IMG/VR virus record: IMGVR_UViG_3300047319_001255
Location: 1 to 38,093 of that record
Direction: 5' to 3' (one strand)
Origin: a virus
DNA length: 38,093 bases
Position 1 is the first letter of the stretch; each line of letters opens with the position of its first letter. Under the pieces are notes generated by a model. The model had not been told where the DNA came from, ran no database searches, and worked only from the letters and a program-made list of their open reading frames with translations. A program made the position numbers and the translations under genes. Shown here piece by piece: positions 10,033-31,438 of this stretch.

Positions 10033-10415
10033 AACTTACGAAGTTAAAGCTTGGCATCTTGTTGGCGGGAGCGGCGATAGGTCTGGCCGCATCCCTTCCC
10101 CCTATGCCGCGTCAATCTACTGTGCTGCGTTCACCCAAGGACGCCGCGAGCCAGCCAGTGAGCCCGGTCACTCCGCAGCGTCTCACGGTGGTTCAGTTGC
10201 CTCTGAGGCGGGCGGAAATCGTATTCGACGTGAAACCGATGGATGGACTTTGGCAGGTAATGCACCAGGTCGGCATCAGCTCGAGCATCGACCTCAAAAC
10301 CTGGACAGTCATCTGGACTGCGCCCTACCCGACCTCGACCCACATTGACACCGTGCTAACCAACCAGCCGGCCGTCGCCTGTTTCTACCGGGCGTTCTGG
10401 GGAGACAAGCCGTGA
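10029..10415 (+). CDS. Secreted protein with fibronectin/'SSDLKTWT' type domain
   Basis: The 128-residue protein starts at GTG 10029, preceded by a clear Shine-Dalgarno (GGAGGA). An N-terminal Sec signal peptide (MKLTKLKLGILLAGAAIGLAAS) is followed by the segment PMPRQSTVLRSPKDAASQP, which is repeated exactly at DNA level in the gene at 13987. The C-terminal part has 'SSIDLKTWTVIWT...ACFYRAFW', the module common at the C-terminus of secreted Verrucomicrobiota and Planctomycetota proteins. The stop overlaps the next GTG start. It probably acts outside the cytoplasmic membrane; the molecular role is unknown. Confidence 0.65.
   Translation: MKLTKLKLGILLAGAAIGLAASLPPMPRQSTVLRSPKDAASQPVSPVTPQRLTVVQLPLRRAEIVFDVKPMDGLWQVMHQVGISSSIDLKTWTVIWTAPYPTSTHIDTVLTNQPAVACFYRAFWGDKP
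10104..10156 (+). repeat. 53-bp direct repeat, copy 1
   Basis: This 53-bp segment is identical to 14233-14285 and lies in the same reading frame in both genes, encoding the stretch just after the signal peptide. Flanking bases show scattered further matches. The copies are 4,129 bp apart in the same orientation. Confidence 0.95.
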
Positions 10416-13863: not shown

Positions 13864-13968
13864 GTGCAACGACTGCTGGTATTCGTCGGTATGCTCTCAA
13901 ATCGAATCTTAATTTCCCCGCCCGAGCGATGGTCAGTTAGCGGTTCAGCCAACGGACCTGCGCGATGA
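13864..13968 (+). CDS. Possible 34-aa protein
   Basis: A GTG at 13864 opens a 34-residue frame ('QRLLVFVGMLSNRILISPPERWSVSG') that has coherent hydrophobic-then-polar sequence. There is no overlap with neighbours and no clear ribosome-binding site, so it is only tentative. Confidence 0.25.
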   Translation: MQRLLVFVGMLSNRILISPPERWSVSGSANGPAR

Positions 13969-13984
13969 CGGCGGGGGATTTTCT
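13916..13984 (+). terminator. Possible hairpin before the gene at 13987
   Basis: CCCCGCC at 13916-13922 pairs with GGCGGGG at 13970-13976 and is followed by GATTTTCTTT. The loop is 47 bases, which is long for a terminator, so this could equally be a chance pairing or part of a larger fold. Confidence 0.25.
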
Positions 13985-13986
13985 TT

Positions 13987-14721
13987 ATGCTGCCTCCATT
14001 TGAACCCACTGAGGACATGCAATACGCCAGCGCGACAGAGCTTTTTCGATATGCCTGCGAGGTGATGCGGTTTGCTGGGACCAAATGCCGCACAGAGGAG
14101 GAAATTTATTTATTCGCCAACTGCGTGACCTGTCTGGCGGCACGCATCTACACGTTGGAGAAGAAGGCCAAGAAGATTTTAGTGATGTGCCTGGCGTGCA
14201 TGTGCCTATCGTCAATAGCTTTAACTCCTCCCATGCCGCGTCAATCTACTGTGCTGCGTTCACCCAAGGACGCCGCGAGCCAGCCGGTAAGCCTGATAAT
14301 CGCTACAACTGTGACCGTCGCGCCGGTGAGACAAATAACTCTCGCTTGGAACTATCCGCCGGAGCGGCTGTCATCCGTGCAGTTTGAGCTGTGGTTTGCC
14401 GCCGACCTTTACGCCGCTTCACGGAGCGCGCTGGCTACCTATGATGCCGTCCCGCTCGGCTTTCAACTCTCAGTGACCGCCGAACAACCTCCGGTTACTA
14501 TTCAATCCAACCTTCCGCAGCAATTCTTTATCGTGCGAGCTAAGAGCAGGGCAACTGGAACCTATAGCCCTTGGAATCAGGCCTCGTCTCAAGGTCCGGT
14601 AAAGCTAATCTCGCCCGCTGATGGCTCCGTGGTCGATGGCGCCATTACGCTCGCGGCTGTCATAGATTATCCCTTGAATGCCCCCTGGCCCCCTGGTGGA
14701 CTCACCATTACTCAAAACTGA
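13987..14721 (+). CDS. Protein with internal signal-like segment and fibronectin-III-like domain
   Basis: Read from ATG 13987 the product is 244 residues: a ~56-residue soluble Cys-containing N-terminus, then a basic stretch and hydrophobic helix (EKKAKKILVMCLACMCLSSIAL), then the PMPRQSTVLRSPKDAASQP segment shared with the gene at 10029, then a fibronectin type III-like domain ('ITLAWNYPPERLSSVQFELWF...QFFIVRAKSRATGTYSPWNQ'). A TTG start at 14155 would make a conventional secreted protein and leave the first 56 codons as a separate or fused piece. The repeated segment in the same place after the hydrophobic helix suggests a shared export/linker module. The function is unknown. Confidence 0.55.
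   Translation: MLPPFEPTEDMQYASATELFRYACEVMRFAGTKCRTEEEIYLFANCVTCLAARIYTLEKKAKKILVMCLACMCLSSIALTPPMPRQSTVLRSPKDAASQPVSLIIATTVTVAPVRQITLAWNYPPERLSSVQFELWFAADLYAASRSALATYDAVPLGFQLSVTAEQPPVTIQSNLPQQFFIVRAKSRATGTYSPWNQASSQGPVKLISPADGSVVDGAITLAAVIDYPLNAPWPPGGLTITQN
14233..14285 (+). repeat. 53-bp direct repeat, copy 2
   Basis: Identical to 10104-10156 and in the same frame relative to the encoded peptide. Beyond 14285 the copies still agree at most positions for about ten bases, then diverge. Confidence 0.95.
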
Positions 14722-20466: not shown

Positions 20467-21507
20467 ATGAGTCCAACCCAATCAGTTCAAAAAAATGACA
20501 CATCGGAAAAACCAATCGTTTTCAAACCCTTCGGCGCTGCTGACGAGATCCGGCTGTCGATTAAGATCGTCCAGAACGTAATCGCTGTCCGCACTAAAAC
20601 TGGGCGCACCTGTTCCGAGCGCGACGCCCTTAAGTTTGTCATGCTTTGCCAGTCGCAGCGGCTGAACCCATTCGCGGGCGACGCCTATCTTGTCGGATAC
20701 GACTCGCGCGACCAAAATGGAAACATCGTCCCGACGTTCTCGCTGATCACGGCCCATCAAGCCTTGCTGAAGCGCGCCGAAGCTAGTGCAGATTTTGAGG
20801 GCATGGACAGCGGGATCATCCTACTGGATGAGGCTGGCAAGGTGTCCGAACGCGAAGGTGATTTTCATCTTGAGGATGAAAAGGTTGTTGGCGGATGGGC
20901 GAGAGTTTACCGCAAGGGACGGAGACCAACCTACCGGCGCCTTGCAATCGCGCAGCGAAAACCAAAATATGATTCTCAGTTTTGGAGTGGCAATAAGGCC
21001 AGTGAGCAAATAGTAAAAACAGCCGAAGCTGACGCGCTGCGCAGCACCTTCCCAACTCTGGTCGGCGGGCTCTATATTGAGGGAGAGCGGGACGAACGCG
21101 CGGATCACTTTGTCTCTGAGATTTCCTCGAATGGGAACTCAGGCGGCTTTGACCCGAAGGGCTTGGTTGAAACGACGCCAGCGACGGCGAGCGCAACGCA
21201 AACCCAAGACCGGGGCCAAGCCGAGAAGGAACAATTCACCGACCCAGGCGACGATAGCGACCTGGCACCACAGAAGGCGAAGGCCGAAACAGCACCAGAA
21301 TCCAAACTCCAAGATGAACTAAGCAAGCTGGTTTTGGAATCCGGCTTCACCTTTGAGCACCTGGCTAAGTGGGGTGAAGGGTCTGGGAACATTCCTGATG
21401 CCTCGTCTATGCCTGGATTTGAGGCTGTCCCAACTGATGTTTGCCGCAGGCTCCTGCGGGCGCGGGCTGGGTTGTTGAAAGGCTTAAAGGAGGCGAAGGG
21501 ATCATGA
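20467..21507 (+). CDS. recT: RecT/Bet-family single-strand annealing protein
   Basis: The 346-residue protein matches the RecT/Bet annealase family: 'FVMLCQSQRLNPFAGDAYLVGYDSRDQNGNIVPTFSLITAHQALLKRAEASADFEGMDSG', then 'GGWARVYRKGRRPTYRRLAIAQRKPKYDSQFWSGNKASEQIVKTAEADALRSTFPTLVGGLY' (the 'k.a...alR..fp...ggly' end). It anneals complementary ssDNA in phage recombination. The C-terminal ~110 residues are a low-complexity linker and a charged helix. Ribosome-binding site GAAAGGAA precedes ATG 20467. The next gene is coupled. No exonuclease partner gene was recognised in the window. Confidence 0.85.
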   Translation: MSPTQSVQKNDTSEKPIVFKPFGAADEIRLSIKIVQNVIAVRTKTGRTCSERDALKFVMLCQSQRLNPFAGDAYLVGYDSRDQNGNIVPTFSLITAHQALLKRAEASADFEGMDSGIILLDEAGKVSEREGDFHLEDEKVVGGWARVYRKGRRPTYRRLAIAQRKPKYDSQFWSGNKASEQIVKTAEADALRSTFPTLVGGLYIEGERDERADHFVSEISSNGNSGGFDPKGLVETTPATASATQTQDRGQAEKEQFTDPGDDSDLAPQKAKAETAPESKLQDELSKLVLESGFTFEHLAKWGEGSGNIPDASSMPGFEAVPTDVCRRLLRARAGLLKGLKEAKGS

Positions 21508-24801: not shown

Positions 24802-25328
24802 TCATAGAGGTCATCGGCATCCCCCAAACCGCCGGCAGCAAGCGCAGTTTTGTAATTCCACGCGCGGGACAACCTTTAGCTGTCACCGGCCCAAACGGCA
24901 GGCAGCGGTTCAATGGTCGTGTGATTATCACCGACGATAATCCGAATAGTCGTGACTGGAAAAACCGCGTAGCACAAGAGGGCCAGGTCGCAATGAGGGG
25001 GCAATCATTCGAGAGACCGCTATTCGAAGGTCCTCTGGCGGTCACTTTTGTTTTTAGAATGCCGCGCATCAAAGGGCACTATCGCGCCTCTGGGGAACTC
25101 AAGCCAAACGCGCCAATGCGTCCGACTGTTCGACCTGACGCGCTCAAGCTGGCCAGGGCCGCAGAGGATGCGCTAACCGGCGTCGTGTGGCGTGACGATT
25201 CCCAAATCGTGATTGAGCACCTCGAAAAGGTTTATGACGAGAAGCCCGGCTGCACCATCACTGTCACACCGCTGGGCGAGCCTATACCCAAACCCAAACC
25301 CGCCAGAGAAATGGAGTTGAAACTGTGA
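24789..25328 (+). CDS. rusA: RusA-like Holliday junction resolvase
   Basis: From ATG 24789, overlapping the nuclease stop by 13 bases, it codes 179 residues with the RusA pattern: 'GIPQTAGSKRSF', then 'RPTVRPDALKLARAAEDALTGVVWRDDSQIVIEHLEKVYDEKPGCTITV', containing the catalytic aspartates (D in 'RPD', 'RDDSQIV') of RusA. RusA-type resolvases cut four-way junctions that arise in phage recombination and replication, matching the RecT here. The stop overlaps the next GTG start. Confidence 0.85.
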   Translation: MGTLIIEVIGIPQTAGSKRSFVIPRAGQPLAVTGPNGRQRFNGRVIITDDNPNSRDWKNRVAQEGQVAMRGQSFERPLFEGPLAVTFVFRMPRIKGHYRASGELKPNAPMRPTVRPDALKLARAAEDALTGVVWRDDSQIVIEHLEKVYDEKPGCTITVTPLGEPIPKPKPAREMELKL

Positions 25329-26090: not shown

Positions 26091-26575
26091 CCTACGAACA
26101 ATTTGTATCAGCAAAAATACCACACGAGCACAGCGCTGGCTTTGAGCCAAGGCTGGCGATTAACAGCAAGCTTTTTGACTGGCAACAGAAGCTAGTCAGG
26201 TGGGCGCTTAAGCTCGGCCGGGCCGCCTTGTTTGAGGACTGCGGGCTCGGTAAAGGACCACAGCAGCTTGAGTGGGCATCACAGGTTCAGGCCTATTCCA
26301 GCCGCCCTGTGCTGGGATTGTGTCCCCTGGCTGTGGCAGACCAGATGGTTTCTGAAGGCTCCAAGTTTGGATACCGGGTCAAGAAGTGCCGTGGGCTGGA
26401 TGACTTCGATCCCTCCGCGATAAATTACACAAACTACGAGCGGCTGCACCTGTTCGAGAATATCATCACCGAACTAGCTGGGGTCATGCTCGACGAGAGC
26501 AGTATACTCAAGGATGTTTCCGGCAGCACGAGCCAGCATCTTTGTGAGGTGTTTTCTGGTAGTGGGCTACTTTGA
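26087..26575 (+). pseudogene. N-terminal part of IS-interrupted SNF2-like helicase-methyltransferase
   Basis: The gene opens at ATG 26087 and reads through helicase motifs, including a P-loop-like 'DCGLGKGPQQLEWA' and 'LDESSILKD' (Walker B/DEAH region). The canonical P-loop is GKT/S; here it is GKG, an unusual change. The frame runs into the insertion element at 26558 and stops at 26575, so only ~157 true codons remain. The other half is at 28357-30096. Without the insert the gene would encode an SNF2-type helicase fused to a DNA methyltransferase of ~736 residues. Confidence 0.85.
26550..26557 (+). repeat. Target-site duplication, left copy
   Basis: TGTTTTCT at 26550-26557 equals 28349-28356, directly flanking the element. 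Removing the element plus one copy restores the reading frame exactly. Confidence 0.9.
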
Positions 26576-26576
26576 A
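26558..26576 (+). repeat. IS left inverted repeat
   Basis: Begins GGTAGTGGGCTACTTT and pairs with the right end at 28330-28348. The GGT start is typical of IS1-family ends. Confidence 0.9.
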
Positions 26577-26613
26577 ATTGTTCATGCAAATAGCTAACAG
26601 ATGGGTAAAGTTT

Positions 26614-26628
26614 GGGCATGAAATGCCC
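26614..26628 (+). promoter_or_regulatory. Palindrome at passenger-gene start
   Basis: GGGCAT and ATGCCC with a three-base gap enclose the ATG. It may be an operator or a start-hiding hairpin; a chance origin is possible. Confidence 0.4.
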
Positions 26629-26854
26629 GCATTGTGGTAACGAGATTAACATCGGCTCCTTGCTCGGGAGAACAACGTCAAAGCGCAAGGCGCGAGCGGC
26701 CAAGCGTAACGCTAAGCTCGGCGGCTGGCCAAAAGGCCGGAAGCGTGGCAAGCGCAAGCCGACAGACCCAAACGTCATCGCGCATGGCGTGGTCAAACAG
26801 GCCGAAGCGCTCACGCAGCAAGCCTCCGTTCTTCAATTTCCAAAAGCGAAATAA
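26618..26854 (+). CDS. IS passenger: small basic zinc-finger protein
   Basis: From ATG 26618 it codes 78 residues with one zinc knuckle 'MKCPHCGNEI' and a strongly basic middle ('TTSKRKARAAKRNAKLGGWPKGRKRGKRK'), then a helical end. It converges on the transposase and overlaps its last 44 bases. Similar short zinc-knuckle/basic proteins are frequent in Verrucomicrobiota. The inverted repeat GGGCAT/ATGCCC (26614-26628) surrounds its start. A DNA- or RNA-binding role is plausible; a role in transposition is not shown. Confidence 0.6.
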   Translation: MKCPHCGNEINIGSLLGRTTSKRKARAAKRNAKLGGWPKGRKRGKRKPTDPNVIAHGVVKQAEALTQQASVLQFPKAK

Positions 26855-27650
26855 GTTCGGCCAGTTCCCAAACGTGGTCCGTGAGACCTGCGGCCATCGC
26901 GGGCGTCACGCGCAGCGTTTGGTGAATCCGCGCAAAGTTGTAGTGGACGAAATGCACCGCGCAAGCGAGGCGGTGGTTTTCCAGCTTCTTGCTGAATCCA
27001 TTTGTCAGGCGCGTGAACCGGCGCATTTGCATACGCACCGTGAGATTGTTCCGCTCTGCGTGACTGGTGCAAATCGTCGCTTCATTGGGCAGGCCAAGGA
27101 TTGTCTCGCGTCGAATCCCAGTCAAAGCGTTCGGACTGTATTTCCCCTGCTCCCCGTCGCCGTAAATTTTGACGAGCATTCCGTAGTCAATCGTGCGAGC
27201 GAGGAACGCGGCCTTGACCGCGACAAGGTATGCGTGATGTCCATCGGTCGAGAGTTGCACGCGGTTGGCAAGCCGTCGTTCAAGATTGCGCATGAATTTG
27301 TAAGCGCTCTCTGCGGTGCGGTCGCCAACGAACCAAGCCGGAATCAATTTCGTTTTCTGGTCAATCGCAATCCAGGTCCAGGCATCACCCCATCCATCCT
27401 CGCTATCGCTTTTGACGTTCTTCGCCTTGCAGCCGACAAAGCTCCAAATCTCGTCGCACTGGATATGCTCGCACGTAAGGCCGGTCATTACCTTGTCGGC
27501 GAAGCGCTCGCACGCCTCGCCAAACTCAACCAAGAGCCGCGAGACCGTGCGCTTGCAAATGCCGGTTATACGGACAGTGGACCGGATGCTGTTGCCTTCG
27601 ACAAGGCAAGCCAGCACCCGGCAGCGGTCTTCGTTAGAGAGGCGGTTCAT
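26811..27650 (-). CDS. IS1-family transposase
   Basis: From ATG 27650 (MNRLSNEDRC...), chosen because the conserved N-terminal HTH begins here and an upstream gene ends at 27656, the protein has 279 residues. It has an HTH region ('NSIRSTVRITGICKRTVSRLLVEFG'), then the catalytic acidic residues: D in 'QCDEIWSFVGCK', D in 'STDGHHAY', E in 'HAERNNLTVRM', the DDE of the IS1-type transposases of this group. It moves the element by DNA cleavage and joining. All key residues are intact, so it may be active. The opposite-strand long frame is a shadow. Confidence 0.9.
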   Translation of the reverse strand: MNRLSNEDRCRVLACLVEGNSIRSTVRITGICKRTVSRLLVEFGEACERFADKVMTGLTCEHIQCDEIWSFVGCKAKNVKSDSEDGWGDAWTWIAIDQKTKLIPAWFVGDRTAESAYKFMRNLERRLANRVQLSTDGHHAYLVAVKAAFLARTIDYGMLVKIYGDGEQGKYSPNALTGIRRETILGLPNEATICTSHAERNNLTVRMQMRRFTRLTNGFSKKLENHRLACAVHFVHYNFARIHQTLRVTPAMAAGLTDHVWELAELISLLEIEERRLAA

Positions 27651-27655
27651 TCTTT

Positions 27656-27793
27656 TTAAGAAAGGTGAATGTGATGCAAACACCAAATAATTATCTCTAC
27701 GGCCTTCCAAACCCCAAGCGGCAGAAAACAGGCGAGCACAATCAGGAGAAAAACGAGGGCTTTGAAGGCTCCTGAAAAATCGTAATCACTCAT
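27656..27793 (-). CDS. IS passenger: 45-aa membrane protein
   Basis: ATG at 27793 overlaps the preceding minus-strand stop (ATGA) and the frame ends five bases before the transposase start. The product is 45 residues with a membrane segment (ALVFLLIVLACFLPLGVWKAVEIII). Coupling to the gene upstream supports it. It is the last of the passengers before the transposase. The role is unknown. Confidence 0.5.
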   Translation of the reverse strand: MSDYDFSGAFKALVFLLIVLACFLPLGVWKAVEIIIWCLHHIHLS

Positions 27794-27972
27794 ATCTCTT
27801 TCCCACAATGAGGACAGATTTGCTTAGCCCAAAATTGCTGCCGCCAAAGACTGACCGCCTCATCTGATAATGATTTGGCCTTTTGATAATCCGGAGAACC
27901 ATTACGCCGCTTTTTCTCGGCATCTATTGCGAGCGCAACAAGGTGAATTGCCTCAAGCTTACCTGAGTTCAT
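27790..27972 (-). CDS. IS passenger: 60-aa helical protein
   Basis: From ATG 27972, overlapping the preceding stop, it codes 60 residues: a charged helix ('EAIHLVALAIDAEKKRRNGSPDYQKAKSLSDEAVSLWRQQF') ending in 'KQICPHCGKEI', a zinc-knuckle half like that in the plus-strand passenger. Its stop overlaps the start of the membrane protein. Function unknown. Confidence 0.5.
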   Translation of the reverse strand: MNSGKLEAIHLVALAIDAEKKRRNGSPDYQKAKSLSDEAVSLWRQQFWAKQICPHCGKEI

Positions 27973-28265
27973 ATCACGCTCCCCGCCCCAGAACCGCGAA
28001 CAACCCAAACACCCATCCCCACATGAACCTCTCCGGTTCTCTTTTCAACAAGCGCAAGAATTGTCGGCAAGGCCCCAAGAATCCAAGCGTCGCTTACAGC
28101 AGGAGTGTAGCAATGCCCATCGACAAAAACGTCTTTGGTGGATTCAAGTTGACGGCCAGACAACCACTCGCGACTGACAATCGAGACGCGGGCATTAATC
28201 GCAGTCGTGGCAACAGTCTGTTTTTCTCTGAGGTTGGACCAGTGTTTCATAAAGTTTTCTTTCAT
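27969..28265 (-). CDS. IS passenger: 98-aa protein of unknown function
   Basis: ATG 28265 opens 98 residues with no membrane segment, cysteine motif or signal ('KHWSNLREKQTVATTAINARVSIVSREWLSGRQLESTKDVFVDGHCYT'). It lies next to the right inverted repeat with a promoter-like sequence upstream. Its stop overlaps the following gene's ATG. I do not recognise it. Confidence 0.5.
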   Translation of the reverse strand: MKENFMKHWSNLREKQTVATTAINARVSIVSREWLSGRQLESTKDVFVDGHCYTPAVSDAWILGALPTILALVEKRTGEVHVGMGVWVVRGSGAGSVI

Positions 28266-28293
28266 GGTTCAACGATATACCTACCTGTTAGGT

Positions 28294-28323
28294 ATTGCAA
28301 CAAGAAAATGAGCATTTTGTCAA
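28294..28323 (-). promoter_or_regulatory. Inward promoter of the IS passenger operon
   Basis: On the minus strand TTGACA (28323-28318) and TGCAAT (28299-28294) with an 18-base spacer form a plausible sigma70 promoter inside the right end. The palindrome TACCT-GTT-AGGTA (28282-28294) sits at the -10 and may be an operator. It would drive the three passengers and the transposase. Confidence 0.5.
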
Positions 28324-28329
28324 ACTATG

Positions 28330-28348
28330 TTGAAAGTAGCCCACTACC
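28330..28348 (-). repeat. IS right inverted repeat
   Basis: Reads GGTAGTGGGCTACTTT on the minus strand; matches the left end with one difference in 19 bases. Confidence 0.9.
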
Positions 28349-30092: not shown

Positions 30093-30329
30093 ATGAAATC
30101 CCTCTCCGACCTTCTAACCTTCGCCCAAAACCTGCGTGGCGCCATAGTCCGCGGCGACTTGAAGCGCGTGGCCAACGATGAGATGACCGCCGAGGCCGCC
30201 GCCGAGCGCAGCGAGTGCATGGACGGCATTGTGGCGAGTCTGCAACTGCGCGTGGACCTGGCGGAGGTCGGCGAGGAGATGAAGAAGTTCAGCGCGCAAG
30301 AGGCCGCACAACCGGAGGTGAGGAAGTGA
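30093..30329 (+). CDS. Small helical protein with cassette C-terminus
   Basis: From ATG 30093, overlapping the methyltransferase stop, it codes 78 residues: a helical, acidic protein ('SDLLTFAQNLRGAIVRGDLKRVANDEMTAEAAAERSECMDG'). It ends in 'AAQPEVRK', the shared C-terminus of the four-gene array. The last bases form junction repeat 1, including a perfect ribosome-binding site. No family is recognised. Confidence 0.6.
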   Translation: MKSLSDLLTFAQNLRGAIVRGDLKRVANDEMTAEAAAERSECMDGIVASLQLRVDLAEVGEEMKKFSAQEAAQPEVRK

Positions 30330-30332
30330 AAC
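30302..30332 (+). repeat. Junction repeat 1 (stop/start and ribosome-binding cassette)
   Basis: The unit ends one gene, carries GGAGGTGA and starts the next at GTG 30326 (GTGA). The four copies at 30302, about 30496, 30648 and 30812 are nearly identical over ~30 bases; copies 1 and 3 match over 31 bases. Confidence 0.9.
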
Positions 30333-30523
30333 TCAGCAAAAATAAGATTACCATTAGCCGATTGCGGGCCGCTAAGGAAATACCTTCAAACTGGCTAGAC
30401 CCATTGCTGTCAGGGCCAACTAAAGTCATTAGCAATCCGCCATATACTTGCAGAGACATCGAACAGCTTCTAAATGCTATACGCGCACGCCTCTTAGCCG
30501 CACCACCGGAGGTGAGGAAGTGA
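30326..30523 (+). CDS. Small basic protein with cassette C-terminus
   Basis: GTG 30326 is seven bases after GGAGG in the junction repeat. The 65-residue product 'KLSKNKITISRLRAAKEIPSNWLDPLLSGPTKVISNPPYTCRDIEQLLNAIRARLLAAPPEVRK' is basic, with helices and one 'NPPY' sequence. That motif recalls methyltransferases but is too isolated to call. It ends in 'LAAPPEVRK', the shared tail. The function is unknown. Confidence 0.6.
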   Translation: MKLSKNKITISRLRAAKEIPSNWLDPLLSGPTKVISNPPYTCRDIEQLLNAIRARLLAAPPEVRK

Positions 30524-30526
30524 ACT
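30496..30526 (+). repeat. Junction repeat 2
   Basis: Same cassette as copy 1, with differences at the variable bases before CCGGAGG and after the stop. GTG 30520 starts the next gene. Confidence 0.9.
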
Positions 30527-30675
30527 GCCCGAAGTGCGGCCAAAAAGCCGAGTTTGTTAGAATTAGAAACATGCCATCTGGACCGCTACCTGTGTGGACG
30601 TGTAACTTTAAAAAGTGCACTTATTACATGCTCTATTTTTATGAGAGGGCCGCACAACCGGAGGTGAGGAAGTGA
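30520..30675 (+). CDS. Small zinc-ribbon protein with cassette C-terminus
   Basis: GTG 30520 opens 51 residues: a zinc ribbon with two C-x(2)-C-like pairs ('NCPKCGQKAEF' and 'WTCNFKKCTYY'), then 'ERAAQPEVRK'. It most likely binds nucleic acid. The gene is bounded by junction repeats 2 and 3, and its stop overlaps the next GTG. Confidence 0.65.
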   Translation: MNCPKCGQKAEFVRIRNMPSGPLPVWTCNFKKCTYYMLYFYERAAQPEVRK

Positions 30676-30678
30676 AAC
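30648..30678 (+). repeat. Junction repeat 3
   Basis: Identical to copy 1 over its 31 bases. It carries the ribosome-binding site and GTG 30672. Confidence 0.9.
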
Positions 30679-30839
30679 TGGCGATCAAAATCAGGAAGAT
30701 TGAGCGCCACATCCAAACCGCTGAAACATTGCAGCCCAAGACGCCTGAAGCTAAAAGCACCATTTTTACATATCTCCACGAAAAGAAGGTTGAACTGCAA
30801 AACTTGAAATTGGCCGCACGCCCGGAGGTGAGGAAGTGA
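30672..30839 (+). CDS. Small coiled-coil protein with cassette C-terminus
   Basis: GTG 30672 opens 55 residues: a continuous charged helix ('KIRKIERHIQTAETLQPKTPEAKSTIFTYLHEKKVELQNLKL') ending in 'AARPEVRK'. It has no cysteine or membrane segment. It is bounded by junction repeats 3 and 4. Function unknown. Confidence 0.6.
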   Translation: MKLAIKIRKIERHIQTAETLQPKTPEAKSTIFTYLHEKKVELQNLKLAARPEVRK

Positions 30840-30842
30840 AAC
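30812..30842 (+). repeat. Junction repeat 4
   Basis: Same cassette; differs from copies 1 and 3 at the two bases before CCGGAGG. It provides the ribosome-binding site and GTG 30836 for the ParB-like gene, whose own end has no further copy. Confidence 0.9.
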
Positions 30843-31438
30843 GCAAACCTGAAATCCCCATCCACTGCGCCTTCACGCGCCTAGTTCCACTCGCGGAAGT
30901 GAAACCCAATCCACGCAACCCCAACACCCATCCCGACTCCCAGCTCGACCTTTATGCCAAGGTTATCGAACACCAGGGCTGGCGTCGCGCTGTAGTGGTG
31001 AGCAACCAGAGCGGCTTCATCGTCACCGGCCACGGCGCGGCTGAAGTCGCCAAGCGCAAGGGCTGGAAAACCGTCCCAGTGGACTTCCAGGACTTCGCTA
31101 GCGATGCCGACGAAAAAGCCCATATGCTCGCTGATAATAGGATCCCAGAATTAGCCGAGCTGGACGCCACAACAACCAAGGCGCTGGAGGATGAAATCTC
31201 AGCAGCCGGCTTGAGCTTGGACTTAAGCGGGCTGGAAATAGACTTCTCACCCGAGGGTCAGTTGGTTGAGGTTAAACCTATGGCGGCCCCGGCCCGATGC
31301 TGGTTTCTGATTGGCTTCCCCACCGTGCGCATGGCTGAGCTGCAACCGCTGATTGACCAGGTGGCCGCGCTTCCCGGGGCCTACATTCAGCACACCATCA
31401 ACAACGACAATGCCGGTCTCATTCAAGAAAACCGATAA
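30836..31438 (+). CDS. ParB-like nuclease/sulfiredoxin-fold protein
   Basis: GTG 30836 overlaps the preceding stop inside junction repeat 4. The 200-residue protein has 'LVPLAEVKPNPRNPNTHPDSQLDLYAKVIEHQGWRRAVVVSNQSGFIVTGHGAAEVAKRKGWKTVPVDF', the ParB/Srx N-terminal domain pattern (V.ip...l.pnp.NpR.H...qi..la.sI...G...pivV....g.ivaGhgR..Aak..G....p). In phages such proteins often accompany DNA methyltransferases or act in DNA modification. The C-terminal half ('CWFLIGFPTVRMAELQPLIDQVAAL') is unassigned. It overlaps the next gene by 29 bases. Confidence 0.75.
   Translation: MKRKPEIPIHCAFTRLVPLAEVKPNPRNPNTHPDSQLDLYAKVIEHQGWRRAVVVSNQSGFIVTGHGAAEVAKRKGWKTVPVDFQDFASDADEKAHMLADNRIPELAELDATTTKALEDEISAAGLSLDLSGLEIDFSPEGQLVEVKPMAAPARCWFLIGFPTVRMAELQPLIDQVAALPGAYIQHTINNDNAGLIQENR

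Follow-up and report, generated by a model that had tools for sequence, protein, structure and literature searches.

The viral contig IMGVR_UViG_3300047319_001255 raises the question of why four consecutive gene junctions should carry almost the same sequence, and of whether this sequence would only join small genes or would also serve for exchanging them. The contig has 38,093 bases, all of which were analysed (hereafter, the window), and it encodes a large terminase and a tape measure protein, so that it can be attributed to a tailed phage.

Organization of the junction array

The repeated unit, GCCGCACNNCCGGAGGTGAGGAAGTGAA, was found as four direct copies of 29–32 bp between positions 30302 and 30843. 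Copy 1 (GGCCGCACAACCGGAGGTGAGGAAGTGAAACT) lies at 30302..30333, copy 2 at 30496..30527, copy 3 at 30648..30679 and copy 4 at 30812..30843, all of them on the plus strand. An 18-nt core, CCGGAGGTGAGGAAGTGA, was exact in the four copies, the chance level in shuffles of the window being 0.03 expected matches with up to 3 mismatches. The exact run shared by copies 1 and 3 is 32 bp long and those of the remaining pairs are 19–21 bp. In each copy the TGA stop codon of the upstream gene lies within a GTGA, giving a 4-nt stop/start overlap, and the downstream gene begins at the GTG; an 8-nt Shine-Dalgarno sequence (GGAGGTGA) is located inside the upstream reading frame. Both the four near-identical copies of about 31 bp and the combination of stop, Shine-Dalgarno and overlapping GTG at every junction, as claimed in a preliminary description of this DNA, were thus confirmed. 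The upstream proteins end in AAQPEVRK, AAPPEVRK, AAQPEVRK and AARPEVRK (copies 1 to 4, respectively). Therefore, the common ending -AAxPEVRK also reported there is present at the four junctions but is not wholly fixed, as one codon varies (CAA, CCA or CGC, for Q, P or R).

The array adjoins a helicase-methyltransferase gene. It is bounded upstream by gene A (30093..30329, plus strand, 78 aa) and downstream by a ParB-like gene (30836..31438, plus strand; PHROG 620 ParB-like, E 6e-25), after which one more gene and a radical SAM gene are found. Four unrelated genes, the ParB-like one among them, had been placed between the copies, but only three are there, since gene A lies upstream of copy 1 and the ParB-like gene downstream of copy 4. 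These three inserts, all on the plus strand, are o1 (30326..30523, 65 aa, GC 46%), basic by inspection and of no recognised family, o2 (30520..30675, 51 aa, GC 42.5%), which is zinc-ribbon-like, and o3 (30672..30839, 55 aa, GC 43%), helical or coiled-coil-like by inspection. They are unrelated where compared, the similarity found by BLAST between o1 and o2 and between o1 and o3 being confined to the tail. Neither o1 nor o3 had a Pfam or PHROG match, and o2 gave a weak match to Lar that was below threshold (E 0.004). A search for promoters in the array gave none. No unit is present at 25325 and 30093, which are also 4-nt overlaps of this strand, and consequently the unit is not simply the way in which this phage joins its genes.

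The helicase-methyltransferase region contains an IS1-like element (26558–28348) with 19-bp terminal inverted repeats (26558–26576 and 28330–28348) and a transposase gene on the minus strand (26811–27710). At the matching region of the nearest relative, locus L006, there is a single gene of 866 aa.

Distribution of the unit in other genomes

The extended unit, written in pattern form as GCCGCACNNCCGGAGGTGANGAAGTGAA, recurred in one other phage only among 2.9 million viral contigs, barring one single match that is probably due to chance. The exact 19-base pattern matched one other viral contig, IMGVR_UViG_3300046690_000366 (the second phage, locus L005). Looser patterns added a third copy in this contig and one unconvincing single match (GCCGCACGACCGGAGGTGA) in locus L134, which was taken as chance because it is a single copy with a different tail and spacing. 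Among bacterial and archaeal genomes only two single Halobacillus matches were obtained, also taken as chance, and in cultured phages and plasmids no match covered the unit. Loci L006, L135 and L007 do not contain it.

In the second phage the three copies are at junctions of other genes, namely downstream of a 152-aa gene and on either side of a 148-aa gene, and all of them are in the same frame as the window units. Two of these copies share 24 bp exactly, copy 3 shares less than 19–21 bp, and copy 2 is at a junction without GCCGCAC. No DNA of the two records is more alike than the unit segments (27–30 bp, with an identity of up to 97%), barring matches of chance length (about 15–17 bp). Their other DNA matches have 74–77% identity over 65–210 bp, the best longer one being 75% over 210 bp, and protein similarity is limited to a few stretches or genes, with the best values (50–60% identity) around window positions 10.3–14.7 kb. 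For gene A and the 148-aa gene, no relatives were found other than L006 and L005 itself, and cultured phages gave no homologues of o2 and of the 152-aa gene. The window gene at 25325 was considered as a homologue of the 148-aa gene and was dropped, as only 15 residues match.

Two further observations were made on the DNA of these phages. A 68-bp direct repeat with 94% identity (10097–10164 and 14226–14293, 4.1 kb apart) lies within a region of the window where similarity to the second phage is also found. Outside the main shared region, a short DNA stretch of the two phages (window 13916–13978 and L132 2883–2945) is 77% identical.

A survey of 205 loci (1.85 Mb), a non-random sample chosen by pattern or by ParB similarity, revealed no other array as long and uniform, barring a low-complexity repeat in L099. 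The linker array is real and uncommon. Shorter start-associated repeats were present in L014 and L110. On the minus strand of L014, four starts (6776, 7909, 8550 and 10123 on the reverse complement) have a CATAGGAGNAAATGACCATG-like sequence that resembles start-associated sequences.

Comparison with start-associated sequences

The start-associated sequences (SAS) of Cluster K mycobacteriophages comprise 13 bp (GGGATAGGAGCCC) and are present in 11–19 copies per genome, mostly at ATG starts; about half have an additional 17-bp imperfect inverted repeat (ESAS), and the upstream stop is inside them only sometimes (PMC3203893). Analogous motifs are known in Microbacterium Cluster EF phages (PMC7302621), and those who described SAS already proposed them as possible targets of homologous recombination (PMC3203893, PMC7302621). 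The unit is like SAS in being repeated, one-directional, provided with a Shine-Dalgarno sequence, located just upstream of the starts of unrelated non-structural genes and conserved beyond the rRNA pairing. It differs in its length of about 30 bp, its single cluster of four, its GTG starts and the upstream stop and last codons included in every copy. In addition, the unit does not match the SAS consensus and has no sequence similarity to it, so that it is not a member of the Cluster K family. The parallel with start-associated repeats drawn in the preliminary description was apt: the unit works like SAS and additionally contains the upstream stop and tail, and the Cluster K and EF sequences are its nearest known kind.

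This likeness brings in the most serious alternative, a start-associated regulatory or translation-enhancing sequence in which the whole unit would be selected by the binding of a host or phage factor to DNA or mRNA, with no gene exchange. The conservation does reach upstream of the Shine-Dalgarno sequence to GCCGCAC in both phages, and Cluster K SAS behave in this manner, some of their conserved positions having no rRNA pairing (PMC3203893). However, GCCGCAC is missing from one junction of the second phage (copy 2), the same flanking genes do without the unit in L006, and there are only four copies in a single cluster. Neither an inverted repeat nor an unusual RNA structure was found: the window has no inverted repeats of at least 22 nt, inspection by eye showed none of lesser length upstream of the copies, and the RNA structure of the junctions was no better than that of shuffles (z −0.5 to +0.9). 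A regulatory sequence is, for these reasons, unlikely.

Gene content of the array and of its relatives

The order of gene A (70%), the ParB-like gene (77%), the next gene (74%) and the radical SAM gene (72%) is kept in L006, in which a single 181-aa gene of another family takes the place of o1–o3. The core of gene A is conserved, its residues 1–64 having 70% identity with L006 2665–2856, and its last residues are replaced by the AAQPEVRK tail; the similarity is lost some 20 bases upstream of the unit. At the other border, the homology of the ParB-like gene starts exactly at the GTG that copy 4 provides. The o2 protein shares 48% identity over 44 aa with L135 2802–3020 (E 2e-16), a homologue situated about 3 kb upstream of ParB and with a longer N-terminus, and the match begins immediately past the GTG and AAC codons and reaches the beginning of the tail. 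Thus, the unit coincides with, or lies close to, the limits of homology to relatives in gene A, o2 and the ParB-like gene. The pooled GC content of the three inserts, 44%, is below that of all record windows of equal length (mean 55.6%, sd 3.9) in a purely descriptive comparison of composition. This suggests a foreign origin of the inserts, and says nothing of their route of entry.

Lambdoid boundary sequences are short shared sequences at gene borders that phage annealing proteins can use for modular exchange; there is usually one for each module border, common to different phages. The present unit is similar in that two phages share it at gene borders and encode RecT and ERF, respectively, and differs in being repeated at consecutive junctions of one genome. 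The gene content between the same flanks differs in L006 and the window, but L006 lacks the unit. Mosaicism through short homologies has been attributed to Rad52-like recombinases (PMC3945230). The proposal of modular exchange between junctions was therefore supported in part, by the different gene content of L006, the foreign-looking inserts, the ends of homology near the unit and the presence of the unit in the second phage; on the other side, no exchange across two units was found, nor any pair of relatives that both carry units and differ in the gene between them.

An alternative is passive spread, in which duplication and replacement would have carried one good junction to the ends of nearby genes, the repeats having no role in gene acquisition. 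The near identity of the copies suggests a recent origin, and the direct relatives searched lack units, the closest of them being L006 and L135; this agrees in part with a simple duplication. However, tandem duplication alone cannot make an array with unrelated genes between the copies, and the unit at another locus of a distant phage opposes a purely local event. We rate passive spread as improbable, slightly below the regulatory sequence.

Origin of the C-terminal tail

The common tail could also be a functional C-terminal peptide tag on small proteins, for instance a degradation or interaction signal, as PEVRK ends six of the seven tails. Nevertheless, the seventh (L005 copy 3) is PEVMK. 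Synonymous changes are absent from the constant codons of the five long copies, and the only codon that varies (Q/P/R) alters the amino acid, which points to DNA identity, and not the peptide, as what is held constant; being drawn from few and similar copies, this is indicative only. In addition, a GGAGGTGA Shine-Dalgarno sequence four bases before a GTGA or ATGA overlap forces the upstream gene to end in -E-V-x-K. Among 74 junctions of unrelated phages carrying the core (core sites, among the matches listed, with a downstream frame of at least 40 codons), the PEVxK frame was the longest open upstream frame in 57. The tag that the junction had been said to impose is thus most likely a side effect of the frame in which the genes overlap: the EVxK ending does follow from the junction, but largely by geometry that is the same in unrelated ones. 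A role as peptide signal is accordingly very unlikely.

In a separate locus, L073 (4096–5521), several small proteins share a C-terminal stretch ending in AKLKEKN, and within its codons is AAGGAG, which serves the next gene as ribosome-binding site. It is an independent case of a junction fixing the C-terminus.

Two readings have hardly any probability. The first, convergence, would have a strong Shine-Dalgarno overlap evolving independently at each junction, and the core alone (CCGGAGGTGANNAARTGA) is indeed found in more than 100 viral stretches among the matches listed, nearly all unrelated to the window. However, at about 85 independent core sites among these matches the GCCGCAC positions were close to random, none having more than 5 of 7. 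As other core junctions do not share GCCGCAC, it is not a requirement, and the extended unit marks common descent, which refutes convergence for it; the scarce and divergent genes shared by the two phages likewise argue that the unit descends from a common source. The second is an integron-like cassette system with the unit as site-specific recombination site, suggested by single genes flanked by direct repeats; unlike attC-like sites, the unit is not palindromic, by inspection it has no GTTRRRY-type core, and a reading of the window ORF list revealed no integrase.

A linker with a proposed role in coupled translation and gene exchange

Termination-reinitiation coupling is known at ATGA and GTGA overlaps (PMC6728339). 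The junctions described here have the same 4-nt overlap, with a Shine-Dalgarno sequence in the upstream gene at working distance, whereas ordinary overlaps are not repeated as an identical 30-bp sequence. The unit is, by its own architecture, a compact gene-to-gene linker containing the tail and stop of the upstream gene, a Shine-Dalgarno sequence and an overlapping GTG. On such a joint, a ribosome finishing one small gene could re-initiate on the next. This coupling architecture is well supported by the arrangement of the four junctions. The derivation of the copies of the extended unit from one source common to distant phages is also well supported, on sequence grounds.

Recombination between units may insert, delete or substitute a small gene. 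Since the joint and its frame are the same in every copy, a swap at the units can leave the neighbours translatable. The exchange would be carried out through short homology, within the same phage or with another one, by an annealing protein. The window has a candidate for this, a RecT-family single-strand annealing protein (20467..21507, plus strand; PF03837, E 7e-23), and the second phage encodes ERF, RecT being absent from L005; both proteins are Rad52-like. Exact identities of about 23–27 bp for Redbeta and of 31–34 bp for RecA are needed (PMC3945230). Most copy pairs, with 19–21 bp, are slightly under the Redbeta threshold, and the 32 bp common to copies 1 and 3 would make possible the loss of o1 plus o2. 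Gene exchange through the linker is accordingly plausible, as we infer from these identities and from the recombinases.

Our preferred reading, to which we assign a probability of about 0.55, is that of a translational-coupling linker, shared by descent, whose short homology would also allow small genes to be acquired or exchanged. More tentatively, and with the odds somewhat against it, the linker could be portable across phage lineages, so that any small gene bearing it would join or be swapped in a coupled array by means of an annealing recombinase; such a gene would be in frame and would bring along its own stop, ribosome-binding site and start. It is a standing question how a phage can acquire or shed small genes of unknown function and still keep its operons intact. 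If the proposed role is true, a linker uniting stop, ribosome-binding site and start in a single recombinable segment would answer it in a concrete and testable way, and the unit would constitute a ready-made joint for building coupled operons.
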